In this document: positions 1,144 to 38,009 of the stretch, in pieces | Numbering within the stretch: the stretch's first letter is position 1 | Layout of the letters: every line of letters begins with the position of its first letter | From: a virus | Length of the DNA: 43,228 nt | Strand: one strand, 5' to 3' | IMG/VR virus record: IMGVR_UViG_3300004448_000217 | Coordinates: 1 to 43,228 of that record | Translations under genes and position numbers: made by a program | Notes under the pieces: generated by a model | Seen by the model: only the letters and a program-made list of their open reading frames with translations | The model's database searches: none | What the model was told of the DNA's origin: nothing

Positions 1144-1180
1144 TTATAAAGTAATTACTTTTTTGCACCGTGAAAGGAGA

Positions 1181-1213
1181 GAAGGGGTCACAAATTGTGA
1201 CTTCTTTTTTTTT
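1181..1213 (+). terminator. Terminator with GTCAC/GTGAC stem
   Basis: GTCAC (1187-1191) and GTGAC (1197-1201) form a stem around a short A/T loop. Flanking GAAG (1181-1184) and CTTC (1201-1204 region) extend it, with a two-base bulge. A long T run (1205-1213) follows. It closes the 258-aa gene. Confidence 0.8.
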
Positions 1214-1222
1214 GTACTTTTG
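1195..1222 (+). promoter_or_regulatory. Bacteroidota-type promoter before the ring-protein genes
   Basis: TACTTTTG (1215-1222) matches the Bacteroidota -7 element TAnnTTTG exactly. TTG at 1195-1197 lies 17 bases upstream, slightly short of the usual spacing to the -33 box. The start codon at 1238 is 15 bases downstream. The promoter immediately follows a terminator, which supports a new transcription unit for the tail genes. The -33 part is weak. Confidence 0.5.
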
Positions 1223-1237
1223 TAGAAAATATATCCT

Positions 1238-1984: not shown

Positions 1985-1987
1985 AGC

Positions 1988-2875: not shown

Positions 2876-2876
2876 T

Positions 2877-5800: not shown

Positions 5801-8144
5801 TATAGTGGAGGGTTATGAAAGAAAAGAAGACGCAAATAAACTTATATATAGCGGAGCCTTCAACGAAAACACTGGTTATAATACATTAAATGAATTTAAT
5901 TCAAGTAGAGGGATAACAAAGTATATGGATATGAAATATGGTTCTATTCAAAAGCTCTTTGCTAGAGAATCGGACTTGATTGTTTTTCAAGAAGATAGAG
6001 TTTCAAAGGTTCTTTACGGAAAAAACATACTAAACAGTCCAGATGGAAGCGGAAGCATATCTCAAATAGAAAAAGTTTTAGGTCAAGATGTTCCTTATTC
6101 TGGAGAATACGGAATTTCTGTAAACCCAGAGTCTTTTGGTCATTACGAGGGTAGACTGTATTTTGCAGACCCTAATAGAGGTGCTGTTTTAAGACTTGGT
6201 GGAGATGGAATAACACCTATATCATACGCAGGAATGAAGTCGTTTTTTAAGGAAAACTTATACAATAATAAAAAAAACTTTAACATAGGTGGTTTTGACC
6301 CAAAGTATCATCAATATGTTTTATCTATGGGCAACGAGGAAATGCCTCAAGCTCCATTAGAGTTAGATTGTGCCTCTACATTTACAAGAACAATTACCTC
6401 AGCATTTAATTACGATTTAAACCTAGGGTCTTTTGCAGGTACAGCTACAATAGCATACACAACATCAGCATCTATAGATATAGTAGTTATCTACAACGGT
6501 AACACATACACCAACAATGGTCTTACTGGGACGGGAACTGTAACTTTCCCTGTAACGTCAACAGACCTTGAGACAACAAACATTGCAGATGTAACAATAA
6601 CACCAGCATCTTCTTCTCTTATTACATTGACACACACGTGTCCAGAACCAGAAACTCTTGAAGTAATATTGGTTGTAGTGAATGACCAAGGAGAGGCTAA
6701 CCAAACGATTATCAACAGATACAAGCACGATGGGGCTCAAGGAGATGTGTATAATGCCGATTTAGATGTTTTTGAAGCTGATGAATTGACAAGATTTGAA
6801 ACTCTATCTGGTTTTATGGGAGGTGATATTATTCCAGATAACGGTGATACTGTAACGCTTTCTTCATTAAAACAATCAGGTATTCATACTGGAGATTTTA
6901 ATGATTGTAATAGTTTGGGTTATTTAGTTTCTGCAGCTGGGAACTTAACAGTTCAAAATATTATAGACCAAGCTACATATCCATCAGTTACAGGACAAAC
7001 ACTAGCTAATGGAGATGAGGAGAACACAACTTCATTTACTTTTAACAGAAATAATACAAGTGAAAAATTATATTTGATTTGGAACTACATTGACCAACTT
7101 CCAGTATTAGTTGATGATTCTATAACAGGAATAACAAACGGAGGAAGCTCAACAATTAATGTAGTTGCTAATGATACAATTCCCTCACCATACACAATTA
7201 CTATAGGAACACAACCAACCAACGGAACTGTAGTAGTAAACGCAGATAATACTATCACATATACTCACACAGCAGAGGCTGACTTAAACGATAGTTTCAC
7301 ATATATTGTAGATAGGGGAGGAGCATGCACCGCAGAAGCTACCGTAACAACTCAAGCTCTTGCAATAACAGTAGATACCTACATATATATAATTTTTGAT
7401 AGTACAGGTTCGATGGGAGGGACTTTTATTCCATTGCAGACAATGGTTGCTGGAGCTTTAAAATCAACGCTTCAAGATTTATATGCAACAGATGGAACTG
7501 AAGCTGAAGGAAATACAGACCCAGCAACAAATGGTAGTGATGAGTATGACAATAAGGTTATTATTGACACTGACGGTACTGAGCGGTCATTTTCAATGGT
7601 AATGAATAGTGACTTGGCTAATAATGGAAACTTCCCATCTGATGCTGCAAATGTAATTGTGTTATCTTTTCAAGATGAAGCATCACCTTACGCCGTTGGT
7701 CAAGGTTCGGTTGCCCTTCCTGCTGCGCCAAATGCAACCGTAACAACAGATATAACTAATCTAAGAAACTCCGTTTCAACATTGAATGGAACAAACTCAG
7801 GATTTTATAGAGGAGCTTTTATTAATGTTCTGGAACGCACACCACCATCAGGATTTCAAGACTTTATGATGGAGATGCGATTTGGGACAACAGCTAACTG
7901 GACAGCAACAAATGCAAACTTAGCAAACTTATCTTCTGGAAGTGACCCGACATTTGTTTATGAAATGAATATTCAAGATGGCCCTGGAGCAGCTCAAAAT
8001 ACAACGACAGCACCACTAAAACCTGATGGAAGCGAACCATTCGACCAATGGCAATATTACTATCTATATTGGATTACACATTCACTTAACACGCTAGGAT
8101 TTACTCCAGACGGTACAACTTGGCCAGCAATAATAGACGACTAA
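2877..8144 (+). CDS. Giant stabilisation/muzzle-like tail protein with Ig-like and VWA-like C-terminal domains (1755 aa)
   Basis: The N-terminus (FSTGKMNKDVDERLIQNGEY, then NVRVLNTAGSDAGAIENEKG) is the hallmark of the phage stabilisation / muzzle proteins of crAss-like and related podoviruses. These are homologous to P22 gp10 and form the distal tail tube and hub. Residues 1-1130 look like the usual beta-propeller-type body. A large addition follows. Residues about 1402-1498 form an Ig-like/cadherin-like repeat (DDSITGITNGGSSTINVVAN, then NGTVVVNADNTITYTHTA). From about 1503 there is a von Willebrand A-like region with a metal-site-like DSTGS at 1508-1512, the variant DxTxS of DxSxS. Such adhesive domains are typical of Bacteroidota surface proteins and suggest host contact. 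The C-terminal domain calls are by eye. Confidence 0.8.
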   Translation: MKIQNLFSTGKMNKDVDERLIQNGEYINAKNVRVLNTAGSDAGAIENEKGNIQLTNINILNNPQCIGSISDEAEEKIYWFIVNNDGFSYIYEYDRTNQITSQVLADERIGDQQVLGFSKDYKITGVNVIYNASKKSKLLLFTDGLNQPRMIDINRSKSYGLNNFYEDDISLYKKPPFEAPKVTPFNTGVATENAVKENFFAFATRYRYLDGGYSACSSFSYFKFSPKLFDIDFASMENNGMENVFNGYRLTYNSGDHRVTDIQLLFKYPVEPTIYIIDNINKKESSILDNTNQTYEFANKKIYKTLPQDEVFRTFDDVPLTAKAQDIINDRIVLGNTTSQYDLLEEEGSDDFIKINYNVSVESTSQDGEVIEGSRTSSDTKITFDFDGFELKEGNTISVFLLLESDEAGTAPDQYFGGEGDVQGAFVLSQDYTSFDDIVLSNEFLDFLTSLSGSFSAVVNTVPPDDVTDTEYGDFVLDSNTQTSFTLLAPTLTHTVDNTPAVTDDDDFTDIDEPYKFKTDNVATIREDSSNVSLKSLRSYEVGLVYLDSYGRYSSVLLPKESLGESSSEVFVPIQNSVDVNKLKVSISNPPPYWANRYKYFVKVNKTPHFTMYASIFYEEELYRWVLLQGANLGKVEAGTVLIVKSDDDGPLDQEVKCKVLEVTTKNSADEPQGEKGWLPDNDVLEKSGTYMKIRPLNFNMDFNPNNFQNYNKRSKKSRTSSGYNNHYLPHFQLGGVLGSFLSYGDKNKGILQILDGDSNTFINQDLNTGSQIKLDFKYEEIGDNFNWNGKFAVNGNYTCAANSPTRLNTFVQWMENETSFPSEELAYGPDPTAVRFRIESFQQNPSDDFILTFFKADAARDLTLLNVTTTERTSGLERSYLTSNIDLIITNGILIFETEPTEIDDEVYYETEETFLIENGLHKGNEQDQTTTNPAVSVLGFGNCFSFGNGAESIRVKDDRFKALFDIKSRPNIAIVEGYERKEDANKLIYSGAFNENTGYNTLNEFNSSRGITKYMDMKYGSIQKLFARESDLIVFQEDRVSKVLYGKNILNSPDGSGSISQIEKVLGQDVPYSGEYGISVNPESFGHYEGRLYFADPNRGAVLRLGGDGITPISYAGMKSFFKENLYNNKKNFNIGGFDPKYHQYVLSMGNEEMPQAPLELDCASTFTRTITSAFNYDLNLGSFAGTATIAYTTSASIDIVVIYNGNTYTNNGLTGTGTVTFPVTSTDLETTNIADVTITPASSSLITLTHTCPEPETLEVILVVVNDQGEANQTIINRYKHDGAQGDVYNADLDVFEADELTRFETLSGFMGGDIIPDNGDTVTLSSLKQSGIHTGDFNDCNSLGYLVSAAGNLTVQNIIDQATYPSVTGQTLANGDEENTTSFTFNRNNTSEKLYLIWNYIDQLPVLVDDSITGITNGGSSTINVVANDTIPSPYTITIGTQPTNGTVVVNADNTITYTHTAEADLNDSFTYIVDRGGACTAEATVTTQALAITVDTYIYIIFDSTGSMGGTFIPLQTMVAGALKSTLQDLYATDGTEAEGNTDPATNGSDEYDNKVIIDTDGTERSFSMVMNSDLANNGNFPSDAANVIVLSFQDEASPYAVGQGSVALPAAPNATVTTDITNLRNSVSTLNGTNSGFYRGAFINVLERTPPSGFQDFMMEMRFGTTANWTATNANLANLSSGSDPTFVYEMNIQDGPGAAQNTTTAPLKPDGSEPFDQWQYYYLYWITHSLNTLGFTPDGTTWPAIIDD

Positions 8145-8145
8145 T

Positions 8146-8919
8146 ATGGCACTACAAGCAGGACAAAGAACAATAACATTTGACGAGGTTTACACTGCCT
8201 GGACTTCTTTTCACTCATATGAACCAGAGTGGATGGAGCGTTTAGGCACTAACTTTTACACATTTAAAGGAGGAGAGCTTTATATTCATGACGAGAATGA
8301 CTCTAGAACCAATTTTTACGGGAGTTCTTATGGATGTAGTGTAACATACTCATCGAACAAGAACCCATCGGATGTAAAGGTTTTTAAAACTATAGGGTTA
8401 GAGACAAACTCTACTAGTTGGTATGCTACCTTATCATCAGAGCAAGAGGCTGGAGCTATAGGTAGTTCGGGTAATTTATTATTTGACAACAAGGAAGGTT
8501 TTAAATACGCCCATATAAGAAGAAATTCAGGTAACAGTCTTGATTTCAACAAGCTTTCTATTCTTGGTATAGGAGAGCTTCAAGTTATTCCAGGGGCGAA
8601 TCAGTATGAGTTTACTAATCAAGTGCCTAATCAGGTAAATGCGAATAACGCTGACTCAATAGGCGGAGATGTACTATATTTCAATAATGGAAGCACTCAA
8701 GAGATTGGTGTAATTGATTCGTTTACAGGTAATACGATAACAACTGTTTCTTCAACAAATACACCATCCGTAAACGATTTTTGTTTTGTTGTTAAAAACG
8801 CAGAGTCAGAATCTTATGGTTTACGTGGTTATCACGCAACAATAACATTAAATAATAATTCTACAAGTTTTGTGGAACTCTATGGGGCAAACGCAGAGGT
8901 GTTTAAGAGCTACATGTAA
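8146..8919 (+). CDS. Hypothetical tail protein (257 aa)
   Basis: The family is not recognised. The protein is rich in Asn, Ser, Thr, Gly and aromatic residues with short beta-type strands throughout (LYIHDENDSRTNFYGSSYG, VTYSSNKNPSDVKVF) and has no helix-rich region. This is the usual look of a phage tail or baseplate adaptor. It starts one base after the muzzle-like gene ends, so it is translated from the same message. A host-like promoter lies just after it. The likely role is a tail-tip or fibre-attachment subunit working with the preceding protein, inferred from position and composition. Confidence 0.75.
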   Translation: MALQAGQRTITFDEVYTAWTSFHSYEPEWMERLGTNFYTFKGGELYIHDENDSRTNFYGSSYGCSVTYSSNKNPSDVKVFKTIGLETNSTSWYATLSSEQEAGAIGSSGNLLFDNKEGFKYAHIRRNSGNSLDFNKLSILGIGELQVIPGANQYEFTNQVPNQVNANNADSIGGDVLYFNNGSTQEIGVIDSFTGNTITTVSSTNTPSVNDFCFVVKNAESESYGLRGYHATITLNNNSTSFVELYGANAEVFKSYM

Positions 8920-8925
8920 ATTTTG

Positions 8926-8933
8926 TATATTTG
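8926..8933 (+). promoter_or_regulatory. Bacteroidota-type -7 element TATATTTG
   Basis: TATATTTG is a full match to TAnnTTTG and lies 16 bases before the start codon at 8950. The -33 region (around 8901-8905, GTTTA) is only a partial match. It fits an extra promoter for the internal virion protein genes. Confidence 0.45.
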
Positions 8934-8949
8934 TAAAAAATAAAGTATT

Positions 8950-9513
8950 ATGGCTATAATGAGTGCAATTGGAATGGGAGTCGGTGCTATTGGCGCTGGT
9001 GTTCAGTTTTTCCAAGGGTCAAAAATGAAAAGAGAAGCTGAGGCTAAACTATCTCAGTTTCGCCATCAAGAGCTAACAAATTTAGCTGAAAACTTAAAAC
9101 CATCTCTAGAAGCGGAAAGACAAATGCAAGTAGCAGCATCTAAACAAAGAGCTGCTGTAGTTGATGTTTCTCAAGGAATGGACGCTGCTCAAGCGATGGG
9201 GATGATGGCTATGGGTTTAGGACAGACTCAAGACATGGAGATGAAGGCGTTTTCTAGCATGCTAGATAAAGAATATCAAGCAGACCAAGTAAGAGTTCAA
9301 GAAGAACAGAATATGAGAGCTATGATAGAGAAAAGAAAGATGGAAGAACTCCAATCTCTTAAAGCTCAAAAGATGGCTGGAACGCAAATGCAAACAAGTG
9401 CAATAAAAGATTTAGGAAGCATGGCTTTAAGTGCTGGTTTGGCTTCGGATAAAATAAAGGCTTCAGAAGGAATGGAGACTAGTTTGCTTGGGACTGCCAA
9501 AAAGAAAAAATAA
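8950..9513 (+). CDS. Small internal virion protein (187 aa)
   Basis: An N-terminal Gly/Ala/Met hydrophobic stretch (IGMGVGAIGAGVQFF) resembles a membrane-inserting segment. A long charged, Gln-rich helix follows (residues about 25-150, many Glu/Lys/Gln) with a Met-rich turn (AAQAMGMMAMGLGQTQDMEM). The end is KKKK. This arrangement matches the small ejected internal proteins of podoviruses (compare T7 gp14 or the cargo proteins of crAss-like phages). It heads a three-gene run of internal-virion-type genes of growing size (187, 678, 2176 aa), a familiar podovirus order. Ejection into the cell envelope is inferred. I see no catalytic motif. Confidence 0.65.
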   Translation: MAIMSAIGMGVGAIGAGVQFFQGSKMKREAEAKLSQFRHQELTNLAENLKPSLEAERQMQVAASKQRAAVVDVSQGMDAAQAMGMMAMGLGQTQDMEMKAFSSMLDKEYQADQVRVQEEQNMRAMIEKRKMEELQSLKAQKMAGTQMQTSAIKDLGSMALSAGLASDKIKASEGMETSLLGTAKKKK

Positions 9514-9519
9514 TAAAAT

Positions 9520-11556
9520 ATGTCATACGGAGGAGGAACTGTAACACAACCAATACTAGGAGGATTTGGAGATTTAGCAACTATGCTTCTTCAAGGTTCT
9601 TCTGAAATAGCTCAGATTAATCTGGAGATAGGTAAAAGAAGAGACCAACAAGCAGCTTCTTTAGCTGAAAGTATCTCTAAGATTACCTCTACTGGGATAA
9701 CTACTCACGATAAACTAATTCAACAAGGGGCTAGAGATGCAGTAAACAGACTAGCTCAGGGCTTTGAAGCTAACAAAAGAGGAGAAATTTCTTTAAGTGA
9801 AGTTTCGGCTATGTCATCTCAATTAGATTCTGAAGTTGGAATTTTGTCTAATATGGCAAAGCTACAAGATGAAAATATTAAAAACATATCCAAGGGAATT
9901 GAAGACGAAGATTTAGATTCAATATCATTTGATTATCAAAACAATTTGTGGTATACTGACCCGAATTTAAAAAACGATGTTTTTGTTTCACCAGCAACAA
10001 ATGCTGACGGAACTATCAAAACAAATCCAGACGGAAGTCCTATGATGGTTAGGAGGCCGTCTATGGAAGGTCTTCAGACTCAAAGGATAAATGGAGTATT
10101 AAGTGTTGTAAAAATAAAAGAAGTACCCTTGAGAGATGAAAATGGTAATCCTCAGTTTGACCCAAACACGGGAGCCCCTTTAACTACAAATAAGACATTT
10201 TCTCAACCTTTAACGGAATTTTTAAATCCTTCACTTAAAAAAGTAAGCCGATACGACTTAGTAGACGATGTTAAGGGGTTTCAATCTATTACAGGCGATA
10301 GATTTCGTTATGTAGATAAAAACACAGGGCAGATTACAAATATGCCTTACAGCCAGCTTGGGTCTACTGCTAACGGAACGATAATTCAAGGGTATACTAT
10401 TGAGCCAGAAAATTTTCCAGACATGATTAGACAGGTGGAAAATTATATTGGTAGCCCAAAAGACGACGAGGTTATATCTATACTTCATAGCTACATGAAG
10501 GCTAGAGCTGATTGGCAGCCAGATTATGGTATCCCAAGGACTGCTGCTGAGGTAAATGATTCTAACCTGATGGAAATTGTTGTTGGTGGTCAAAAAACAA
10601 TTCTTCCAAAGTATTATGATATGAATGGAGATTCTTTGACCTTTACTTCAGACCCTTTAGATTTACAAACAGACGGGTCTGGTAAGATAATGGTGACTGA
10701 AGAGCAAAGAGAGTTAGCTAAGGCATTTAAAAGAGACCATATGCTTAAATCCTTTAACGTTGAATACAAAGACTACAAGGAGTATATAGATGGTAAAAAA
10801 TCATCTTCAAGAATCCCACCTACAGTTTCTTACAACCAAGCTGTTTACTCTAAATCTACGGCTAATGGGATAAATAATTCAAATGCACTTGATTCAGATT
10901 ATTTATCTAATAGGTTAGGTATAGCTGTGATAGGAAGAGATGAGTTTTCATCTGGAAGCTCTTCGTCAGCAAACGATACAAGGAGTGCGATTGCTACGCA
11001 TAATAATGGTCAATTAATCAGCACAGCTCAGTTGGCGGCATCAACTGGTCAAGTTAAAAATTTATATGACAGAAGAAATGATGTCGTTGGAGGGTTTTCT
11101 ATAGTTTACGCATCAACACCAACAAAAAGTTCAGATGACGTAAGGACTAAAATAATGCAAGACCTAAAAGGTACAACAGCTTCTGGAGGTAAACTTACAT
11201 CTGTACAAAACATTTTATTTATGGACCAAGGTGTTGTTGATGGGAAAAACGCTGCAGCTCAAGTTTTGATTGAGGGTACTATAGATTTAGCATCAACAGC
11301 AACCTCTACAACAAACGCTTCTGGAGCTAGCACGGGTTCTATGGCTCAAAAACAGTCGATATCTGTATCTGATTTTTATGTGGTTGACGCTAATGAATTA
11401 CCAAGTTTATATAGAAAATTATGGGACCAAGGTAAAGGGCCTAAGTCTTTTAGACGTATATTGGAAGGAAAAGGATTTAATGTAGATGGTAATTTTAACG
11501 GAGCCTCAAACCAATGGCTTAAAGCATTTGAAGCTTACACTGAAGAAATGAATTAA
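9520..11556 (+). CDS. Middle-sized internal virion protein (678 aa)
   Basis: The N-terminal 140 residues are helical with a Gly-rich start (GGGTVTQPILGGFGDLATML) and long amphipathic helices (INLEIGKRRDQQAASLAESI). The rest is mixed. Residues 480-590 are Ser/Thr/Ala-rich (STATSTTNASGASTGSM). No enzyme motif is visible. It lies 6 bases after the 187-aa gene and 2 bases before the 2176-aa gene, giving the small, middle and large internal virion protein order known for T7-like and related podoviruses. The assignment rests on that order and on composition. A tail-associated scaffold is an alternative. Confidence 0.65.
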   Translation: MSYGGGTVTQPILGGFGDLATMLLQGSSEIAQINLEIGKRRDQQAASLAESISKITSTGITTHDKLIQQGARDAVNRLAQGFEANKRGEISLSEVSAMSSQLDSEVGILSNMAKLQDENIKNISKGIEDEDLDSISFDYQNNLWYTDPNLKNDVFVSPATNADGTIKTNPDGSPMMVRRPSMEGLQTQRINGVLSVVKIKEVPLRDENGNPQFDPNTGAPLTTNKTFSQPLTEFLNPSLKKVSRYDLVDDVKGFQSITGDRFRYVDKNTGQITNMPYSQLGSTANGTIIQGYTIEPENFPDMIRQVENYIGSPKDDEVISILHSYMKARADWQPDYGIPRTAAEVNDSNLMEIVVGGQKTILPKYYDMNGDSLTFTSDPLDLQTDGSGKIMVTEEQRELAKAFKRDHMLKSFNVEYKDYKEYIDGKKSSSRIPPTVSYNQAVYSKSTANGINNSNALDSDYLSNRLGIAVIGRDEFSSGSSSSANDTRSAIATHNNGQLISTAQLAASTGQVKNLYDRRNDVVGGFSIVYASTPTKSSDDVRTKIMQDLKGTTASGGKLTSVQNILFMDQGVVDGKNAAAQVLIEGTIDLASTATSTTNASGASTGSMAQKQSISVSDFYVVDANELPSLYRKLWDQGKGPKSFRRILEGKGFNVDGNFNGASNQWLKAFEAYTEEMN

Positions 11557-11558
11557 TT

Positions 11559-14500
11559 ATGATTGTGAACACAGAAAATCAAGTTGAAGGATTAGCTCCT
11601 GAAGAATTAAGTAAAGACATAGCTGTTACTGAAGACGCAAATGATGCTCAAGAGACTTCTACTACCGATGTATCAGTAGACCTAGACCCACCTGTTAACA
11701 AGGAAAAGGTTTATTCTTATCTAGTTTCTCTTTATGACAACGCTGGTAAAAAATATAACGAGCAAAAGCTTAGACAAATATCTTCTACTTCAGACGTTAG
11801 ATACTGGGTTAATTGGGCTCATGAAAAAACTGGACAGAAAGCTTTAGATGACAATAGTTGGAAAAAACTATCATCTACTTGGGTAGACCAAGTAAAGGTT
11901 GAAAAAAAAAATCAAGTTCAGACTTTAAAAAACTCACTTCAGGAAAATGCAATTGTTCCAACGGTAGGAGATACGGATTCTCAATCCATCTTGGAAACTA
12001 CTCCTTTAACATCGGGTTCTCAAGAGCCGACTAGCTTATCGGATATACCTCAGCCAAGAGTTACTGAATACTACACAGAGCAACTAGACGAGAATAATAG
12101 CATACTTCCAGTAATAAAGCAACTCCCTAGAGATTTACTTACTATGGGTGAAGGAGATGCTGCATTAGCTTTCAATGATGTTTTAGGTGATTTTGGGTAT
12201 AATGCTATGGAGACTGAAGCTGGCTCTAATAGCTTAAAAGTTTCAAGACCAGACGGAAGCATATTTGAAATCAACTTGATGTCTGACTTAGGAGATGTTG
12301 TGTATGGAGCTGTAAGGAGCGACGATTATAATCAATCACTAAACTTAAAGCATAATAAATTTGTAATGGATTTAGCTCTTGGAAAGCAAAACCTTGTTCA
12401 GGTTATGTCAGACCAGTTAGATAGTAATCCATTCGGAATTAATGAAGGAATGCGTCTTTTCACAAGGCAAATGAATAAGCCAGAAGAATCAGATTTATCT
12501 TTTCTTTCTAAAGCGCTTACTGGCCAGGAAAATTCTACTTTATTTAACACAGGGGGTACATTTAACCCAGAATTATTTATGACTGCTTTACAGCAGCTTA
12601 AAGGTAATATATCGCCTGCGTATAATGATATAATTAATCAAGAAGCTGATTACCAGAGAGAGGTAAGAATGTCTACGTTATCAAGCGTAAAAACAGATAA
12701 TCTTGTTTTACCAGAGAACCCACAGACATCTTTATCTGAACAAGAAATTGCAAGCAACAACAGAGTTAAATCGACTTACCGAAAGATAGATGAAATAATA
12801 AAAAAATACGAAACATCAAAAAGAAATACATCTAAACTATTAGGTAAGGCTCTAAAACGAAGTGCTGCCCTAGGTCAGGTTGATTTGCATGATGAAGAAA
12901 TTGTAGGTGGTTTAGTAAATAGCGGACTTGATATGCTGGATATGCCACTTCCTTCATTAATGATAAATGATAAACAAGCATCATTTCAAGACGTATATGA
13001 TTTAATATCAACTCCAAAAACCCTTGGATACATACAAAGAGGTGACATAAAAGTTTCAATAGATGATACTGTAGACGTCGGTCTTTTTAATGAATTGGTT
13101 GGTAAATTAAAAACAACTCAAGAAAGAAACACTGCTTTTTTAGACGAGGGTAATCCAAGACTTAACTCTTTTTTAAGGGGACTAGTTGATGTTCCTCAAG
13201 GAATATATGCCCACACATTAGACATACTCAATAATTTTGGAGTGGGTATTTCTGATGCTTTTGTTGGCTTAGGAATGAGTAGAGAAGCTGCTGACTTTGC
13301 AGTATTTGGAGAGATGGGTGTGGTTGTAGGAGGCTCAAAATTTAGCCCTCCATCGGTTATATCAAAATTATCTTTACCATCTAAAAAAGATGTTGAAGAC
13401 GCTATGGCATTACTGCCTGAATACAGTGGCTCTATATCAGACTCAAGAGGTATGGGTGAGTTTTTGTCATATGGAATGCAAGGGTTTACGGCTTCAGTAC
13501 CGTATATAGGTGCTTTTATCGCCAACCCTTCTGTAGGATTAGGTGTTACTTTTGGCAGCACTTACGGCGGTAGTATTGAAGAAGTTAGGGATGCTAAGGA
13601 CGCTGCTAAACAAGCACAGGTTTCTGGAGCTATTTTGACAGAAAAAGAAAAAGGCTTACTTGGAATGTCTAACAACGAGGCTAGAGCATATGCTTTTTCC
13701 AAAGCAGGAATGGAAACAGCTATAACAGCTGCTTTTACTGGAAGATACTTTAAGCAATTAAAACTTGCAAACGGATTCAAAAATATTCCAAAAACACAAG
13801 AATCTGCTCAACAATTAGCAGACGCTTTTGCAAGACAAAATAGAAAGGGGTTAATAGCTGCTTTTTCAAAATACACAGGCCTAGATGGTAGGGTTATCGC
13901 TAGTGAAATCCCAGAAGAACAATTTATAGCATATACGGGGTATCTTACTCAAGTTGCTTTTGGATTGGAAGAATATGATTCCAAAAAAGCAATTAAATTA
14001 GCTAAGGACGCTGGGTTAAATTCTTTATTTAGCAGTTCAGCTATGTCGGTTGGCGGTAAATTAATTACTCCAAACGCTAATGAAATTGCAAATAAAACTA
14101 TAAACAGGAAAATAACTCTTGACGGAGAAATGGATGCTGTTAAAGACAAGCTTGAAGCTGACTTTATTATTTCAAATCTGGAAACTTCTGGAATAAACAA
14201 AAACACAGCAAAATTCAAGGCCGCATTACAGATGCAACAAGATGCAGATAATCGAATACTGAACATTCAAAAAAGAAAAGAGGAGTTAGTTGAGCAGATG
14301 AGTGTTAGCGACAAAAAAAACTTCTTACAAGGTATCGCAGATTTAGAAGGTTTTCAGGCGACGATGGAAGAAGGTGGAAAGCCAGAAGAAATAAACTCAA
14401 CTCAAAAGCTTATTGATGAAAAGAAAGCTGAAATGAGAAAGCTTCTTACGAAATATCCAAGCGAGCTTAGCTATTATTTCTTGCCAAAAGATACGCAAAC

Positions 14501-17500
14501 ACAACTCATAGACAGGGCCCTTACAGAGCTTTCAGAAGAAGCTGGTCCAGAAGAAACCTTTAGTCTTACAAGCGAAGATTCAAAGGTTATTGAGCGAGCA
14601 TCACAGATATATAAGGAGGATGTTCTAGAGCGAATGGTAGAGCCAGAGGAGAATGTGGATGTTTCTGGATATTTTAACAACGTATCTGATTATTACGCAG
14701 AAACGACACAGCCAGAAGAAGCTGATTTTGATGTAGATGCAGCAATATTAGAAATAGAACAAAAAGCAACTACAGAAAAACCACCTACACAAACTGAACT
14801 AGACTTAGAGCAAACAGATGCACAGCAAATTGAAGGCGACCCTTCTTCAGACATGCAAAAAGAAGACGATTCTAGCGTCTTAGAGCAAGAGGATAAGGAT
14901 AGAACAAACAATATCATATCTAGGATAAAGAGTTTAAACTTATCAAAAGGTCTTTATAATTCTTTAGATAAAAGACAGAAAAAGATACTTTCGGGATTTC
15001 TTACAGATGTTCAAAATGGTAAAAGACCAAAATATGCTAGACTAGAAACTATTTTAGATGCTCAAGAGACAATAAACGACTTAAAAGTTTTAAATAATAA
15101 TAGCCCAATAAGCATTTTAGACAATCCAAATGCAGGTCTTTTAAACGATAAAAAGCCAATTGATTTTGTAAAAGACTTATATCCATACCTTAATAATTTA
15201 GGTAGAAAAATAATGATGGGAGGAACAAAGTTAAATCCCAAAAACTTAATGACTTCTGACATATTTTTAGGTGCTATATTTAGAAATACTAGTAAGGGGA
15301 AGCCTTTTATAGACTTGGTTTCTTCTGCTAATAGAGGTGTAGCTACATCTATAAACTCATCTCAGGAATTTATTAATCAAGATTCTAGTTTATTTATTAA
15401 TGAAATAAAGGCATACAACAAAGCAAACCCAAAGAGTAGGATTTCAACAGACTTAAGAAACTTAGAAACTTCTTATGAAATGCAAGTTCTTGCTCATTTA
15501 AGAAGAAGGTCTGGGGAAACAGACCAAACAACAGGTCTCGATACGGAGTTTCAAAGACAAAAAGCCAGTTTATTAAAAGAACTTGAGCTAAGAAAGCAAG
15601 AGTATGAAAAAGATAAGTCAGACTCAACGAACGAAGTTCTTTACAGACAGCTTGAAGACACTTTAAATCGTCTTGGTGTAACTAGCGCCTTGTCATATGA
15701 AGATGTAACTAAAAACGCTAAAGACCCAATAGTAAACGCTTTAAATAGATTGTCTGATAGATTTCCACATGCAGAAGCTAAAAAAAGAAAGCAAGATTAT
15801 GATGGACAGGATACTTATTTCGTAGATGGGACCTACGTCCCTAGTTTTAGAAGAGGGGATGACGGAAATGACAGGTCGGACGGCAGCAATAAAGGGGGCT
15901 CGTCAAACTACGGGACTATAGCTGGTGTATTTCAAGATATCGTAATGGATGATACTCTTGAAAACTCTAGACTGTCTTTTGGAAATTATTTCGAAAGAGC
16001 ATACCAACAAATGCAAGGCTCTTTTATAGATATGAACTCTAGAAGCGACTTTGAGCAGATAGATATGATTGTGAACTCTTCTGACTTTGAGGGTCTTTTC
16101 AAGAATCCGAAGGAGTATGAGATGGTTAAAAAGTATTTTGGCTCAAGAATGGAGGTTTTCAACTTTATGATAAGTCAAGGTCAAAATGTAAATACTGATT
16201 TCGGCAGTATGAATAACGTTTTTTCAACTTACAAAAAAGCTGGAGCTGCGTTTTATTCTACTATTTCTGCGATAGGACTTGCAAGACTCAATCAACCAGC
16301 ATCTCAGTTTTACAGTGCAACTTCTGGAACAATACCCATGTTAACAGATGCAAGGGCAAAAAACCACTTACAATTAGCTAATGCAAGGTTTTTATACTCG
16401 ATGGCTGGTGTCGGAAACGGTCAAAAAACTGCAAAATATGCGCAATGGGCTAACAATCTTATTGGAGGTGGTCATCTTACGAACATATATAAGCAATCTA
16501 GAACAGGATTGCGTAACGCTTTGAAGGCTGAATTTGCTATAGGAGACAAAACAAAACTACCACTTGATTACTATGTAAGTAAATTTAATCTAGATAGTAG
16601 TATTTTTTCAGATGAAATGAGAGGCATGAAGTACACTGTGGATTCGTTTTTAGACACAGTTACTAAAAGTTCAGAATTATCTCTTGAGTTCTTTTTAGCT
16701 AATGCAGATAGAGCTGCTGCAAACTCCGCTTTTGAGTCTCATTATCTTCAAAACAGAATAGACCAAGGAGCGGTAATTCCTAAAGATATGGGTGCTTGGT
16801 GGGCAAAAGAAAACGAAAACCCAAACAAAGAGGCTATAGAATATGCAGATAGAAGAATAGCAGAAACAATGAGGCAAACAGAACCAACTTCTGAGGCTGA
16901 ATTTTATGCTGTAAACGCTAGTGATAACACTAAATTTGCTCAAAGAACCATTTTCCCTTGGGGTAAATTTATGTTAAATGCAAAAGCAAACTTTGCAAAT
17001 CAATATGCTAGAAGTACAGATAAGACACTCCCAGAAGTCCAAAGAGAAGAGGCTAGAAGAAGAATGCAGGGTATTGTTAATGAAGTGTCTGTGTTTAACG
17101 GTATAAAGCTGACTACAAATGGAGTTACCACAATGGGAATTATTGGTGGTATCGTTAGTTTATTAGGTACTGATGAAGATGATATAAAAAGATATGAAGG
17201 TGGAATGACAAAACTCATATCTGATGCATTAAATATAGAGGATGCTGATTACGCAGAAAGCTTATCAGATATGCCTAGAGCTCAAAGAGAAACTCTTGAA
17301 GGATTTAGAAACTCTATGAGAGAATCTACAAGTGGCCTTGACAATACCTTACTGGAGATATACAAGCACTCAATGGAATATGAAAATAAGTTTGAGATAT
17401 CAAATAACTATAGTGTTCTTGTTCAAACAGCTTTTGATGTACTTCAAAACTCATCGCCTATTCCAGCTCCAGAGCCTTTGTATGATTTAGCTTACATGGC

Positions 17501-18089
17501 AATGAATGAAATGTATGGAGATGAAATAATTCCAGAATACATTTCTGCTGATTTAGAGCGAATGGGTACAGATAGTGACGAGGTTGCTTTACTTGTAAAA
17601 GAAAACCTAGGTATGTATGGCGTTGCATTTGAGCAGTATGACAAATGGAGAAAAGCTAGAATACTTTACAATGAAGGTGCTTTTAGAAAAGGAAAGTCAG
17701 GAGTGGGTAGCGGAGAAATAATAGAGTATATAGCTGCAGATACACCAGCCCTACAGGAAAAGCTAGATAAAACAATTAAGTTTATGTACCACGCTAGAAC
17801 TATGAACCTGGTTCTTCCTGGACCAAAAGGAGACATGAACAAGCTTTTAAATAAGCTAGAGCGACAAATAGAGCAAAACTATACGAGGTCAGCTCCTTCT
17901 ATTAAGGGAATAAATAACGAATTCTTTAAAGCTTATTTAGACTTTAGAGTAAATGAACAAGGAATCACTGTTGATAAGCTAAAAATAGCTAAATGGTGGG
18001 AAAAAGAGCAGAAAAACATGAATGGTGCAGCTAGAAAGCATGCAATAGAAAAAATAGAAGAAATAAGAAAAGCTTCTCTATCTAATTAG
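11559..18089 (+). CDS. Large internal virion protein (2176 aa)
   Basis: This is the largest gene in the window. An acidic, low-complexity N-terminus (residues 1-150) is followed by helical domains. A hydrophobic Gly-rich zone lies at about 560-680 (GVGISDAFVGLGM, YIGAFIANPSVGLGVTFGST). A Glu/Gln-rich linker spans about 990-1130, and the C-terminal half is long and helical, with a segment (RTIFPWGKFMLNAKANFANQ) of the kind seen in large ejected virion proteins. I looked for the DxDGD-type catalytic motif of crAss-like virion RNA polymerases and for lytic transglycosylase motifs, and saw neither. The stop overlaps the convergent gene at 18086 by 4 bases. The likely role is a DNA-ejection conduit protein. 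Confidence 0.7.
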   Translation: MIVNTENQVEGLAPEELSKDIAVTEDANDAQETSTTDVSVDLDPPVNKEKVYSYLVSLYDNAGKKYNEQKLRQISSTSDVRYWVNWAHEKTGQKALDDNSWKKLSSTWVDQVKVEKKNQVQTLKNSLQENAIVPTVGDTDSQSILETTPLTSGSQEPTSLSDIPQPRVTEYYTEQLDENNSILPVIKQLPRDLLTMGEGDAALAFNDVLGDFGYNAMETEAGSNSLKVSRPDGSIFEINLMSDLGDVVYGAVRSDDYNQSLNLKHNKFVMDLALGKQNLVQVMSDQLDSNPFGINEGMRLFTRQMNKPEESDLSFLSKALTGQENSTLFNTGGTFNPELFMTALQQLKGNISPAYNDIINQEADYQREVRMSTLSSVKTDNLVLPENPQTSLSEQEIASNNRVKSTYRKIDEIIKKYETSKRNTSKLLGKALKRSAALGQVDLHDEEIVGGLVNSGLDMLDMPLPSLMINDKQASFQDVYDLISTPKTLGYIQRGDIKVSIDDTVDVGLFNELVGKLKTTQERNTAFLDEGNPRLNSFLRGLVDVPQGIYAHTLDILNNFGVGISDAFVGLGMSREAADFAVFGEMGVVVGGSKFSPPSVISKLSLPSKKDVEDAMALLPEYSGSISDSRGMGEFLSYGMQGFTASVPYIGAFIANPSVGLGVTFGSTYGGSIEEVRDAKDAAKQAQVSGAILTEKEKGLLGMSNNEARAYAFSKAGMETAITAAFTGRYFKQLKLANGFKNIPKTQESAQQLADAFARQNRKGLIAAFSKYTGLDGRVIASEIPEEQFIAYTGYLTQVAFGLEEYDSKKAIKLAKDAGLNSLFSSSAMSVGGKLITPNANEIANKTINRKITLDGEMDAVKDKLEADFIISNLETSGINKNTAKFKAALQMQQDADNRILNIQKRKEELVEQMSVSDKKNFLQGIADLEGFQATMEEGGKPEEINSTQKLIDEKKAEMRKLLTKYPSELSYYFLPKDTQTQLIDRALTELSEEAGPEETFSLTSEDSKVIERASQIYKEDVLERMVEPEENVDVSGYFNNVSDYYAETTQPEEADFDVDAAILEIEQKATTEKPPTQTELDLEQTDAQQIEGDPSSDMQKEDDSSVLEQEDKDRTNNIISRIKSLNLSKGLYNSLDKRQKKILSGFLTDVQNGKRPKYARLETILDAQETINDLKVLNNNSPISILDNPNAGLLNDKKPIDFVKDLYPYLNNLGRKIMMGGTKLNPKNLMTSDIFLGAIFRNTSKGKPFIDLVSSANRGVATSINSSQEFINQDSSLFINEIKAYNKANPKSRISTDLRNLETSYEMQVLAHLRRRSGETDQTTGLDTEFQRQKASLLKELELRKQEYEKDKSDSTNEVLYRQLEDTLNRLGVTSALSYEDVTKNAKDPIVNALNRLSDRFPHAEAKKRKQDYDGQDTYFVDGTYVPSFRRGDDGNDRSDGSNKGGSSNYGTIAGVFQDIVMDDTLENSRLSFGNYFERAYQQMQGSFIDMNSRSDFEQIDMIVNSSDFEGLFKNPKEYEMVKKYFGSRMEVFNFMISQGQNVNTDFGSMNNVFSTYKKAGAAFYSTISAIGLARLNQPASQFYSATSGTIPMLTDARAKNHLQLANARFLYSMAGVGNGQKTAKYAQWANNLIGGGHLTNIYKQSRTGLRNALKAEFAIGDKTKLPLDYYVSKFNLDSSIFSDEMRGMKYTVDSFLDTVTKSSELSLEFFLANADRAAANSAFESHYLQNRIDQGAVIPKDMGAWWAKENENPNKEAIEYADRRIAETMRQTEPTSEAEFYAVNASDNTKFAQRTIFPWGKFMLNAKANFANQYARSTDKTLPEVQREEARRRMQGIVNEVSVFNGIKLTTNGVTTMGIIGGIVSLLGTDEDDIKRYEGGMTKLISDALNIEDADYAESLSDMPRAQRETLEGFRNSMRESTSGLDNTLLEIYKHSMEYENKFEISNNYSVLVQTAFDVLQNSSPIPAPEPLYDLAYMAMNEMYGDEIIPEYISADLERMGTDSDEVALLVKENLGMYGVAFEQYDKWRKARILYNEGAFRKGKSGVGSGEIIEYIAADTPALQEKLDKTIKFMYHARTMNLVLPGPKGDMNKLLNKLERQIEQNYTRSAPSIKGINNEFFKAYLDFRVNEQGITVDKLKIAKWWEKEQKNMNGAARKHAIEKIEEIRKASLSN

Positions 18090-33550: not shown

Positions 33551-33576
33551 AATATTATTTTTGATTTATAATTTAG

Positions 33577-33648
33577 TAGCCCGTGAAGGAATCGAACCTC
33601 CATTTGCACCGTGAAAGGGTGACGTCCTAACCATTAGACGAACGGGCC
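33577..33648 (-). tRNA. tRNA-Glu (anticodon TTC), 72 nt, no encoded CCA
   Basis: The acceptor stem GGCCCGT pairs with ACGGGCT (one G-U), with discriminator A at 33577. The D arm is TCTAATGGTTAGGA, and the anticodon arm CACCCTTTCACGGTG holds TTC. The T arm is GGAGGTTCGATTCCTTC, with a normal GTTCGATTC loop. CCA is not encoded (CTA follows), so host CCA-adding enzyme is required. GAA is a frequent codon in this A+T-rich genome, which may explain why it is kept. Confidence 0.93.
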
Positions 33649-34109: not shown

Positions 34110-34853
34110 CTAAGAGTAAGAGGCATACTCTGGATTGTCAATTTCCCATTGAGATAGTGAATCAACAGTTTCGAAATTCATTTCGCTTCTATCTATGTAA
34201 CTAAACTGTTCGTTTGTTACTGATTGTAACGCTGTATCTTCTGCTACACCGTAGAACAAATCGTCATTGTCAAAGTTATCTTGTTCAACAACTTTCATTG
34301 TATATCGTTCTTCAAAGTTCTTGATTAACCACGTTGGTACGTATATGACATATCTGTCTTTCAGTTGTAGATATTCCTTAACCTTACCGTCAACCAATTT
34401 CGTTTTGATTGCTGATACGTTTCTGTCATCGTATCTATCTACAACCATAGCTTCTGATACCTTACTCATTGGATATTCTACTAATGATTGTGAATCGTAT
34501 TCCCATTCTATCGTCTGACGTGAGGCAGACTTCTTGACTTTAGTCAAGCCTTTGACTTCTAGGATTGCGCCGTGTTCGTTGACTGCACCCTGTTCAGTCA
34601 TAAGAACCGAATCCTTGAAGTTAAATTTATAATAGCTACCAGGTACTATTAGTTGATTGTGAAGCCCACGTTCTTTGTTAGTGTAACGAAACTCGTACTT
34701 AGAGTTGGTTGACCATGATGTAGGTATCCACTTATCTTTGTAGATACGCTTGCCGTCAAGCGATGTTACGTTAGTTAAGTACATTGCTTTTCTTGATTTG
34801 CTACCGATGATTGATGCGATAACTGGAACTGATTTGTAAGATGAATTATTCAT
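34110..34853 (-). CDS. Hypothetical protein, first gene of the leftward block (247 aa)
   Basis: The family is not recognised. Mixed, soluble, with beta-type segments (YLTNVTSLDGKRIYKDKW, VIYVPTWLIKNF) and an acidic C-terminal quarter (DNFDNDDLFYGVAEDT). It has its own terminator and directly faces the gene-free region at 34.86 kb, so it may be the first gene expressed. Early first genes often encode host-takeover factors, but no motif supports a specific role. Two TGATTGTGA copies (34485, 34654) lie in it in different reading frames. Confidence 0.75.
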   Translation of the reverse strand: MNNSSYKSVPVIASIIGSKSRKAMYLTNVTSLDGKRIYKDKWIPTSWSTNSKYEFRYTNKERGLHNQLIVPGSYYKFNFKDSVLMTEQGAVNEHGAILEVKGLTKVKKSASRQTIEWEYDSQSLVEYPMSKVSEAMVVDRYDDRNVSAIKTKLVDGKVKEYLQLKDRYVIYVPTWLIKNFEERYTMKVVEQDNFDNDDLFYGVAEDTALQSVTNEQFSYIDRSEMNFETVDSLSQWEIDNPEYASYS

Positions 34854-34873
34854 AATATATAAATTAAATTAAT

Positions 34874-35423
34874 GTGTACGTGACTCTCACGCACACTCGC
34901 CGTCTTTGCGCTGTCAAGGGAAGCGTTAGCTTACCGTAGATAATATTGCATTAGTCAAGACCGACTGTCCAATAATTTTTCATTAGAAGAAAATTATTTG
35001 ACGGAGCGCTGGCGAGGCTTCGGAGAGTGTTCCTCTTCGAAGACTGTCTTTACTTATACAATATTACGAGAGCCACCCGAGAGGGTGATTAGCTCGATGC
35101 AGTATATTTCAATAGACGTGTGTGTGAGAGCCCTGACCATTGGGCGGCTGCGAGGGCCACGACCCGAGCGTTAATTGATATGCAACTACCAATGTCTACG
35201 CCCGCAACGATTGACAAACTATGACAACGTTCTACCAGCAGTATATATATAGAGTCAATTATAGTACAAGTGGTAATGTATTGTTTAGTATTTATGTAGG
35301 GATAGGGTGGGTTATCGAATGATTGTGAACAGGCAAGAAAGAATTATCTCTAGGGGGTGGGGGTATACGGGGTGAGTTAAAGGATACCAGGGGTATCCGT
35401 CAAAGCGAGACAAGCGAAGCTTG
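34874..35423 (+). ncRNA. Candidate large structured RNA in the divergent gene-free region
   Basis: No gene is seen from 34854 to 35685, yet the DNA folds extensively and is G+C-richer than its surroundings. A 13-bp helix joins 34884-34896 to 35118-35130 (one G-U) and closes a multi-branch domain. Its branches are: CTCGCC/GGCGAG (34896-34901 with 35011-35016) continued by GCGCT/AGCGC and GTCAA/TTGAC; AATAATTTT/AAAATTATT (34971-34979 with 34990-34998); a 10-bp hairpin at 35018-35042 (one G-U); and CACCC-GAGA-GGGTG at 35074-35087, a GNRA loop. Further helices follow: GGGCG/CGCCC (35142-35146 with 35199-35203), ATTGAC/GTCAAT (35210-35215 with 35254-35259), and hairpins at 35382-35398 and 35411-35423. 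Both G-U pairs and the GNRA loop point to the + strand. Ends are approximate and no clear promoter is seen. Confidence 0.55.
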
Positions 35424-35673
35424 GCGAGCGTACAATAGAGTTAGTTGTAAAATATACAGGGTTCAAAAAAAGCTAAAAGTTTTAGATAGTTGTAGGAATA
35501 ATAAGTACCCCGTGGGTTAAGAGAAAACGTTTTGTAATAGTGTAGAGTGTATATAAAGTACAGGTTATCCAAAACCTATGTATTTGCGTGGCGGTTTTTT
35601 GAAAACACCTATTACACTTAATAATGGTCAGTATTAATTTACAATAATGCGCCACATTTTATTATTTTTTTTG

Positions 35674-35681
35674 TATCTTTA
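35674..35681 (+). promoter_or_regulatory. Possible -7 element TATCTTTA before the 33-aa gene
   Basis: Seven of eight bases match TAnnTTTG. It lies 4 bases before the start codon at 35686, so the message would be nearly leaderless. The -33 region is T-rich but without a clear TTTG. Confidence 0.3.
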
Positions 35682-35685
35682 CAAT

Positions 35686-35787
35686 ATGAAAAAAGATTAC
35701 ACAAAATCGGTCACCTGGATAGTCATAGGTCTTATAGCAATAGGCTTATGGGGCTTCATATTAGAATTCATATATGAGGTATTGTAA
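35686..35787 (+). CDS. Tiny single-pass membrane protein (33 aa)
   Basis: MKKDYTKSV precedes one strong hydrophobic segment (WIVIGLIAIGLWGFILEFI), ending YEVL. It overlaps the following zinc-ribbon gene by 14 bases. It is the first gene of the right-hand + strand block. Function is unknown. Confidence 0.6.
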   Translation: MKKDYTKSVTWIVIGLIAIGLWGFILEFIYEVL

Positions 35788-36112
35788 CAAGTGTTTGAAG
35801 AACAAAACCAACGACAAGTTTAAAAGCGACAGTAAGCTAACTTGTAAAAAGTGTGAGTACCGTTTTAGACAAAGAATACTAAGGTTGATGGTAGAAGACA
35901 GAAAAATGTCTATTCAAGAAAAGCTATCGTCTAGAATTGGATACCTTGGCGCTGGATTACTAATATCGGCACAATGGACCATAGAACCTATTCTTTACGT
36001 TCTCGGGTTTGTGTGTGTCATAGTTCAAGTATCTTTTAAAAAGCAATGGAATTTAGTTGCCTTAAACCTCAACGGGCTTATTGCATGGGCAACTCATTTT
36101 ATAAAAGGATAA
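35774..36112 (+). CDS. Zinc-ribbon membrane protein (112 aa)
   Basis: Cys4, Cys7, Cys24 and Cys27 (YCNKCLKNK, LTCKKCEYR) form a four-Cys zinc site at the N-terminus. A basic helical stretch follows (RFRQRILRLMVEDRKM), then two hydrophobic segments, about residues 55-72 and 74-87 (IGYLGAGLLISAQW, ILYVLGFVCVIVQVSF), and an amphipathic C-terminus. A cytosolic zinc head on a membrane anchor is predicted. The family is not recognised. It lies 2 bases before the next gene. Confidence 0.65.
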   Translation: MRYCNKCLKNKTNDKFKSDSKLTCKKCEYRFRQRILRLMVEDRKMSIQEKLSSRIGYLGAGLLISAQWTIEPILYVLGFVCVIVQVSFKKQWNLVALNLNGLIAWATHFIKG

Positions 36113-36114
36113 TT

Positions 36115-36246
36115 ATGTGGGTAACAAATAACAGTATAAATGTCACGAATAATAACACGACTGTGTCAGGAGATTATTTCACTCAAACAACGACCTGGGA
36201 CGAAGATTTTAATCCAAAAACTTCAACAAAAAATAGACGAAATTGA
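36115..36246 (+). CDS. Small Asn/Thr-rich protein (43 aa)
   Basis: The start at 36115 (MWVTNNSINVTNNNTTVSGD) follows the preceding stop with the recurrent TAATTATG spacing. An earlier in-frame start at 36046 would overlap the zinc-ribbon gene by 67 bases. The protein is low complexity and beta-like with a basic end (KTSTKNRRN). Its stop is followed immediately by the 11-bp repeat array. Confidence 0.5.
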   Translation: MWVTNNSINVTNNNTTVSGDYFTQTTTWDEDFNPKTSTKNRRN

Positions 36247-36247
36247 G

Positions 36248-36280
36248 CGACAAGCAAGCGACAAGCAAGCGACAAACAAG
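36248..36280 (+). repeat. Three tandem 11-bp iterons upstream of groEL
   Basis: CGACAAGCAAG occurs twice (36248-36258, 36259-36269), followed by CGACAAACAAG (36270-36280), in perfect 11-base register. The third unit is identical to a unit of the array inside the initiator gene on the other strand. This suggests binding by the same protein. Confidence 0.75.
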
Positions 36281-36332
36281 ACATCCTGACAGTCAGTAAC
36301 TTACGGTACAAATTTTGACCTTATAAAAATAT

Positions 36333-36407: not shown

Positions 36408-38009
36408 ATGATAGAAAAACAGATAGTTTTTGGGTCCGATGGGCGTGAGAAACTAAAAAAAGGAGTAGATATACTAGCTGATGCGGTTGCCTCCACACTT
36501 GGAGCATCGGGTAGAACGGTAATTATCGAAGACCAGTTCGGAAACCCACATATTACTAAGGATGGGGTTACAGTAGCTAATAGTGTACTGCTATCGGACC
36601 CCGTAGAGAACTTAGGGTGTAGTATTTTGAAGCAAGCTAGCCAAAAAACAGCTTCAGAGGCAGGTGATGGGACGACAACTTCCTGTGTTTTAGCTGCAAA
36701 ACTCATAGATGAGTGTTTTAAGAACATTTCAAACATAGAAAACGTAACACAAGCTAAGTCTGGAATCGAAGAAGCGGCAAAGGATATCGTAAAAGAGCTT
36801 GAAAAACTAAAAGTAGACGTTACAGACGAGAAATTACTAGAGGTGGCTAAGATTTCTGCCAACGGAGATGAGTATATTGGTAAGATGATATCTGATGCCT
36901 ACCTAAAAGTAGGTAAAGATGGTGTTGTAACCATGGACGAGTCCACCACAGGCGAGGATTACACCGAAATAACTAATGGAACTAAGATAAACAGAGGGTA
37001 TGGCACGCCATTTAGCGTAAATAACCTTAGAAACAAGTCAGTGGAGTACCAAAACCCACTAATTGTGGTGAGTGATATGAAAATTGACATGCACGAAAGG
37101 CTACATTTCGCTTTTGAGCAGTCAATCAAGCAAAAACGCCCACTTCTAATTGTTTCTGACCTTGACGATAGAGTAAAATTGTTCATAGCTCAGAATATAA
37201 ATAAAAAGAACCTTACAGCTAACTTTATTACACCTGAAGGTATCGGCCTTAAAAAGTTCGAACTACTGGAAGACTTGTGTCTTATGACTGGAGCTAAGAT
37301 GATTTCAGAAATGTCAGGAGATTCAAAACAAAATATCGACGAAAACTACTTAGGTACGTGTCGTCAGATGATTTCTAACTCAACTGAAACAGTTTTGGTG
37401 TTTGACGAAGAGGTAAACACAAAGAAAGATGAGGTTATCGAGTGGTTGAATAAAGAAATCCGACTAACGAAGAATAAATCCGATAAATGGCACTTACAAG
37501 ACCGATTATCAAAACTAGCTGGAGGGGTGGCTACTATTAAACTCGCAGGAAACTCTGAGGTAGAGCTTAAAGAAAAGAAAGACAGAGTAGATGACTCCAT
37601 CCATGCAACTAAGGCTGCCTTAGAAGAAGGAATAGTTGCTGGTGGCGGAATTGCACTAATTGATGCGGCTAGAAAAATATCGCAAAAACCTCCTCGAAGT
37701 AGTAATTCATTTAACTTAGGGTATAAAATGATGGTTTCCGTACTATCTAGCCCTTGGAACAGGATTATGTTAAATGCAATGGATGTAATTGACCAAGACA
37801 TCATTGATGCAATGGAAAATAAGCGTAAGAACTTCGGTTTTGATGTCAAAACAAAAAAATATGGTAACATGTTTAAAATGGGAATAGTTGACCCGTTCAA
37901 GGTCACAAAAAACGCTGTACTTAACTCAGCTTCTGTTGCCTCTACCATACTAACAACATCATGTGTAATTTCAAACAAAAGAATAAAAAGAGATGAAAGC
38001 AGTAGGTAG
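36408..38009 (+). CDS. groEL: Phage GroEL chaperonin (533 aa)
   Basis: Group I chaperonin along its whole length. The N-terminal ATP-site motifs include LGASGRTV, ITKDGVTVA (Asp52) and GDGTTT (Asp87). The C-terminal equatorial part has VDDSIHATKAALEEGIVAGG, holding the ATP-hydrolysis Asp that corresponds to Asp398 of E. coli. The apical domain is the most divergent part: NRGYGTPFSVN replaces DRGYLSPYF, changing polypeptide-binding residues. The C-terminus lacks the GGM repeat tail and ends in a basic RIKRDESSR. It is followed by groES with a 17-base overlap, the reverse of the bacterial order. The likely job is folding capsid or other large phage proteins. All key catalytic residues are present, so it should be active. 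Confidence 0.95.
   Translation: MIEKQIVFGSDGREKLKKGVDILADAVASTLGASGRTVIIEDQFGNPHITKDGVTVANSVLLSDPVENLGCSILKQASQKTASEAGDGTTTSCVLAAKLIDECFKNISNIENVTQAKSGIEEAAKDIVKELEKLKVDVTDEKLLEVAKISANGDEYIGKMISDAYLKVGKDGVVTMDESTTGEDYTEITNGTKINRGYGTPFSVNNLRNKSVEYQNPLIVVSDMKIDMHERLHFAFEQSIKQKRPLLIVSDLDDRVKLFIAQNINKKNLTANFITPEGIGLKKFELLEDLCLMTGAKMISEMSGDSKQNIDENYLGTCRQMISNSTETVLVFDEEVNTKKDEVIEWLNKEIRLTKNKSDKWHLQDRLSKLAGGVATIKLAGNSEVELKEKKDRVDDSIHATKAALEEGIVAGGGIALIDAARKISQKPPRSSNSFNLGYKMMVSVLSSPWNRIMLNAMDVIDQDIIDAMENKRKNFGFDVKTKKYGNMFKMGIVDPFKVTKNAVLNSASVASTILTTSCVISNKRIKRDESSR

Follow-up and report, generated by a model that had tools for sequence, protein, structure and literature searches.

RecBCD uses Chi in a single orientation, and enzymes of the RecBCD type recognise Chi only when they approach it from its 3' side. 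KOPS motifs direct a translocase towards dif, and in ColE1-type origins a structured primer RNA runs into G-clusters and an A-tract. Lambdoid phages have their Chi sites concentrated in the stretch from the origin to the packaging site, in some of them towards cos (PMC3784561), and it is also known that RecBCD and Chi act at the completion of replication (PMC10025158).

The locus compared with these systems here lies in a single IMG/VR virus record, IMGVR_UViG_3300004448_000217, the whole 43,228 bases of which were analysed (the window). This is a partial genome, taken to be incomplete because a relative, G002, is circular by a 123-nt end repeat and closes at 60,778 bp. Genes for virion proteins run rightward from 367 to 18089, genes for a primase-helicase, a DnaD-like loader, exonucleases and MazG run leftward from 34853 down to 18086, and from 35686 on small ORFs, GroEL and GroES are again rightward. 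The nearest cultured phages infect Cellulophaga, Flavobacterium and Tenacibaculum (30-42% protein identity), and the phage is a marine one of the Flavobacteriia type. Between the divergent early and late genes, upstream of groEL, sits a gap that a preliminary description had called gene-free, as it is, since ORFs that reach 60 aa are absent between 34853 and 35774, with one very short ORF from about 35686. The tRNA-Glu said to lie nearby is real (33576-33648), and tRNAs are found at a similar location in four relatives. No DNA similar to the gap region is present in 50,697 cultured phage records.

Homologues were gathered via the genes that flank the gap and via its conserved core. A wider pattern scan of genome contigs gave one real match and two chance matches, and a scan with the pattern TTACC...GTGGC gave no further family member. 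The real match (L058, NZMJ01000013.1) is a 64.7-kb phage contig of the window's family inside a genome bin labelled Maricaulis, and is probably misbinned. The features of the locus are collected in Table 1.

Table 1. Features in and around the gap (window coordinates; L059 and L060 are the two close relatives that share the 5' domain)
Feature	Position	Strand	Remarks
Polar-motif copies besides the core copy (n=15)	1650, 11560, 16066, 18385, 22473, 24763, 27272, 29403, 29428, 30753, 32355, 33028, 33882, 34485, 34654	+	
First gene of leftward (early) module	34110..34853	-	no known family
Polar-motif copy	34654..34662	+	one of the 15 others
P1, outer helix, 5' strand	34884..34896	+	pairs with 35118-35130; 13 bp in L060, 12/13 in L059
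Small hairpin AAGC-GTTA-GCTT	34921..34932	+	stem invariant in three phages; loop varies GTTA/GATA
P2, inner helix, 5' strand	34942..34961	+	pairs with 35046-35065; L059 has two compensatory double changes
Hairpin, closing GUC/GAC	34967..35002	+	inner stem AAUAAUUUU/AAAAUUAUU in window, GAUUGU/GCAAUC in relatives
10-bp hairpin	35018..35042	+	invariant in three phages
P2, inner helix, 3' strand	35046..35065	+	pairs with 34942-34961
Stem CGAG-AGC/GCTCG with window-specific GAGA-loop insert	35067..35096	+	relatives: short hairpins CGAGAGCTTTGCTCG, CGAGAGCTCAGCTCG
P1, outer helix, 3' strand	35118..35130	+	pairs with 34884-34896
Sequence-conserved noncoding core	35273..35690	+	same location in all relatives reaching it; blastn 67-82%, alignment, model R2
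Conserved TGTTTA, perhaps part of a promoter	35282..35287	+	alignment; TATGTTTA in several relatives
Hairpin GATAG...TTATC, just 5' of motif	35301..35316	+	96% of cells paired, 11 sequences
ATGATTGTGAA, terminal polar-motif copy, invariant in core	35319..35329	+	TGATTGTGA 16:0 in window, 150:0 in family
Hairpin GGATACC/GGTATCC	35382..35398	+	three compensatory double changes; GATTTCC/GGAAATC in L059
Hairpin CAAGC-GAA-GCTTG	35411..35423	+	A-U to G-C double change in relatives
GTGGC, 5' arm of invariant inverted repeat	35588..35592	+	pairs with 35651-35655; invariant in 12 sequences
GCCAC, 3' arm of inverted repeat	35651..35655	+	then T-run, then TAnnTTTG-like box ahead of next ATG
Phage GroEL, anchor gene downstream of locus	36408..38009	+	PF00118, E 7e-64

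The most over-represented 9-mer in the window and in its family is TGATTGTGA, which occurs 16 times in the window where 0.5 are expected, always on the + strand, and which in 17 family records is found 150 times on one strand and not once on the other. The window has 13 matches to ATGATTGTGAA with up to one mismatch (2 expected), again all on the + strand, and every one-mismatch variant of TGATTGTGA is near background. The sites fall in leftward (-) genes (76), in rightward (+) genes (39) and outside ORFs (29), and inside genes they use all possible reading frames, therefore selection is on the DNA and not on the peptide or mRNA. The motif is also graded along the genome, left of the core its density per kb declines from 1.57 through 1.33, 0.88, 0.67 and 0.42 to 0.22 (nearest interval 0-1 kb, farthest 16-32 kb), and right of the core there are no sites within 0-9 kb (116 kb pooled), whereas the lowest density on the left predicts at least 25. 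The spacing of sites grows with distance from the core in all eight genomes tested (rho 0.59-0.95) and the gradient is found inside the early module alone (1.50, 0.92, 0.67 and 0.42 per kb), with the family records being related, so that the tests of gradient and polarity are not fully independent. This polar, graded motif is robust, and to our knowledge has not been reported so far; nothing relevant to the word was found in open-access papers. One copy in the window (11559-11569) forms the start codon of a 2176-aa gene, and the same is seen for a 2249-aa gene in G002 (18898).

The gradient ends at a noncoding core, the sequence of which is conserved at the same location in every relative covering it, with model R2 matching it in every one of these family genomes. 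Neither this core, which is conserved more deeply than the 5' part, nor the polar motif had been noticed in the preliminary description. The consensus fold of the core is similar on the two strands. Its stability as RNA is not unusual (z mostly -0.5 to -3), which is why a DNA role was considered. The hairpin just 5' of the terminal motif copy has a final pair that is G-C, G-U or A-U depending on the phage. Further helices had been drawn as far as 35423, and among these are the GGATACC and CAAGC-GAA hairpins, which show compensatory changes among five relatives; the hairpins of the core that carry such changes are lineage-specific. In L065-L067 a G-quadruplex-type run, GGGTTGGGTGGGTGGGG, replaces the hairpin of other lineages. 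The core also carries an A-rich stretch, with the A-tract AAAAAAAGCTAAAA at about 35465, and the GTGGC/GCCAC inverted repeat, the arms of which are 58 nt apart. On the fixed alignment no covariation was found in the AGGUU/AACCU hairpin or in GTGGC/GCCAC, in the latter because its arms do not vary.

A number of other readings of parts of the core were considered. A protein-coding core was rejected, as ORFs from ATGATTGTGAA vary in length and do not continue in the alignment as read by eye. The word GCGCCACAT was rejected as a promoter box, with an RNA or terminator role judged likelier because its distance to the TAnnTTTG-like box varies among relatives. A pseudoknot of an ACCC loop with GGGU is attractive in several sequences, with not all covered, and no claim is made of it. 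Upstream of GroEL in two distant phages (L074 and L075, GroEL 41%) short words in common with the core can be seen by eye (an A-rich word, AAAAAGCTGAAAA, GCCCCGTGGGGC, ATAACCCA and CCCCGTGGGG), homology is not claimed as there is no significant match to model R2. Just ahead of GroEL in the window, at 36158-36282, is a small unlisted ORF (MSRIITRLCQEI...ERQASDK...), the DNA of which is nearly invariant, with GCGACAAGCAA repeated in distant relatives. In L059 (about 990-1460) and L062 (about 2230-2590) a small gene lies between two copies of TTTACA-N5-TGCGCCACAT, with only a short remnant in L060, as if the gene could come and go by recombination.

The 5' part of the gap is where an ornate RNA had been proposed, and here the folding withstands shuffling, with 34854-35425 outdoing every one of 100 dinucleotide shuffles on either strand (z -2.8 on + and -3.3 on -). 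The 5' domain (34884-35130) is recognisable by sequence only in two close relatives, so the comparison is of three sequences, the window, L060 (record G001) and L059 (G010), the consensus fold of which reaches -74.8 kcal/mol on the + strand versus -65.8 on the - strand, and z -7.5 against column shuffles. A covariance model of the inner part of the domain found no further copy in 0.97 Mb including the family genomes. The 13-bp outer helix of the preliminary description (P1) is conserved in both relatives, where two one-sided changes keep G-U or A-U pairs on the + strand, and its 10-bp hairpin is kept as well. The interrupted 16-bp helix that it placed at 34896-35016 is not conserved, the 5' strand having diverged in both relatives and the 3' strand not, and the GAGA-capped stem, real as a stem, is an insert confined to the window. 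The double changes in P2 are G-C to C-G and U-A to C-G, and the GUC/GAC-closed hairpin retains its stem though both arms have changed, the arm in the relatives containing a copy of the polar motif.

Thus a candidate structured RNA on the + strand, as first suggested, is supported by the consensus fold, by compensatory changes that keep helices (two doubles in P2 among three sequences, three in the GGATACC hairpin among five) and by the changes in P1 that pair only on this strand. Counts of G-U versus A-C pairs on a structure folded for the + strand favour G-U by construction, and for this reason are not used as proof of strand. Judged from sequence comparison, the 5' domain is likely to be a real structured RNA with a fold partly unlike the one first drawn, the main limit being that there are three sequences. 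In other lineages the gap between the early gene and the core differs in sequence, yet folding is strong on both strands in eight of nine lineages tested (z -3 to -6), the remaining one, G003, giving z -1.2 over the 138 nt tested, and covarying pairs are seen in two lineage pairs.

Membership of this RNA in GOLLD or ROOL is not supported, as tRNAs are the only matches at an Rfam gathering score, both in the window and in 13 relatives. A permissive Rfam scan of 34500-35900 gave two chance matches only, with nothing else reaching E<=5. The identities OLE, HEARO, introns, tmRNA and RNase P are rejected as they have no Rfam match either, and no tmRNA was found by ARAGORN. The RNA may be of a new class. 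It could be argued that the main content of the locus is an RNA gene for a large, ornate, stable and stand-alone phage RNA of about 0.75 kb resembling GOLLD or ROOL, with the polar motif ending nearby by chance. The conserved fold with its compensatory changes and the way the upstream part folds strongly in most lineages despite differing sequences are in favour of this, as are the conserved 3' part, variable 5' part, nearby tRNA and phage setting described for GOLLD (PMC12286853). Against it are the failure to match Rfam, the unexceptional stability of the core, long-range helices that lack covariation, and an invariant segment of the core that is a DNA motif repeated genome-wide. A reading as RNA only is insufficient because the conserved core and a genome-wide polar motif that ends there stay unexplained. 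An explanation by an RNA gene in the main is considered unlikely.

The reading preferred here is that the gap is a DNA-end locus, at which one-directional or rolling-circle replication would start or finish and/or a packaging cut would be made, and which also has an RNA gene; a probability of roughly 0.45 is placed on it. A helicase-nuclease, either the host AddAB/RecBCD type or a phage enzyme, may enter DNA ends at or just right of the core and move leftward. On its way it would read TGATTGTGA from the 3' side as a Chi-like signal, at which degradation stops and recombination starts, and sites nearest the end would matter most because an enzyme coming from the right meets those first. The structured RNA could extend rightward to enter the core, which is rich in G and A, and serve there as a primer or R-loop, or as a packaging or late-control RNA. 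The motif is, as is typical of Chi, an exact and short word that is over-represented and strand-polar, and its one-sidedness, its exactness and a gradient that ends abruptly fit selection for Chi-like end protection.

Other observations bear on the DNA-end reading to differing degrees. Four of the 13 contigs that bear the core end no more than 45 nt from the motif (P about 4e-8 if random), which assembly breaks at a short conserved word could also cause. The AT skew at fourfold sites has the same sign in six of six genomes and is weakly consistent with rightward one-directional replication; GC skew is mixed in this regard, and the minimum of cumulative GC skew falls at about 35 kb, where gene direction also switches. 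Counting against a DNA end, in the circular relative G002 the distance to terminase is 19 kb, and no copy of the motif occurs in the cultured flavobacterial phages examined, namely Cellulophaga phi10:1 and phi38:1, stretches of phi13:2 and phi40:1, Tenacibaculum JQ and elemo.

The same polarity, the density rising to one point and the 5' to 3' orientation towards that point could also be produced if TGATTGTGA were to act in the manner of KOPS, loading a DNA translocase or directing it to a site of resolution or packaging inside the core. However, no FtsK-like protein was seen among the genes scanned in a non-exhaustive search and no recombination site is known at the core, which leaves this explanation improbable. 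No more probable is a leader function for the late (groEL) operon, in which the region would form a long 5' RNA and control late transcription by, for example, antitermination or attenuation. As a leader might, the region always immediately precedes the groEL module and has an inverted repeat and T-run at its end, but in nearly all relatives a TAnnTTTG-type promoter-like box follows the T-run directly ahead of the first small ORF, so the late operon can start after the RNA, and a leader leaves the motif gradient unexplained. An antisense regulator, in which the RNA segment AUGAUUGUGAA pairs with many UUCACAAUCAU sites in leftward early mRNAs, would suit the 76 of 144 sites for which the gene is leftward and its mRNA complementary, but is already disfavoured and very improbable given 39 sites in rightward genes, in the non-pairing sense, with polarity complete there too.

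If the motif is Chi-like, it would provide from sequence alone a candidate recombination signal for Flavobacteriia, one of the major marine bacterial groups, for which we know of no earlier candidate. It would also show the site and direction of DNA-end formation in an uncultured phage family, and selection for end protection can be measured by the gradient. The gap adds an unclassified structured RNA at the same locus, with replication, packaging and late control as candidate links. Tentatively, and with some doubt, a sharply defined DNA-end locus may thus join an unclassified structured RNA to a genome-wide, fully one-sided, distance-graded 9-bp signal, the putative reader of which is a helicase-nuclease or translocase belonging either to marine Flavobacteriia or to the phage itself, and the signal would be the first Chi-like word for the group.

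Amongst known systems, GOLLD and ROOL resemble the gap RNA in being phage-encoded and structured, with a conserved 3' and a variable 5' part and a tRNA nearby (PMC12286853), which is a resemblance only. The gap RNA differs in having no Rfam match and a core that is not strongly folded. A polar repeated word, TTGATAGTGTT, is also present in Cellulophaga phage phi38:1, the GroEL of which is distant, and it is found on one strand only (L137, 11965-29664; TGATAGTGT 11:0). Several of its copies are just upstream of leftward start codons and for this reason it is read as a probable expression signal, whereas TGATTGTGA is mostly inside genes. The KOPS motifs of FtsK are likewise polar with a density rising to one point, and differ in the word, the gene content and the sharp one-sided end seen in the window's family. 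The gap invites comparison with ColE1-type primer RNA origins, in that a structured RNA would run into G-clusters and an A-tract. The Chi of lambdoid phages (GCTGGTGG, read by RecBCD) is, like TGATTGTGA, a short, exact and over-represented word, and it is concentrated near the origin or packaging site (PMC3784561), as TGATTGTGA may be. In contrast to it, the window's family has a word of its own, TGATTGTGA, with a strand bias of 150:0 genome-wide and a smooth gradient with an abrupt end at a noncoding locus.
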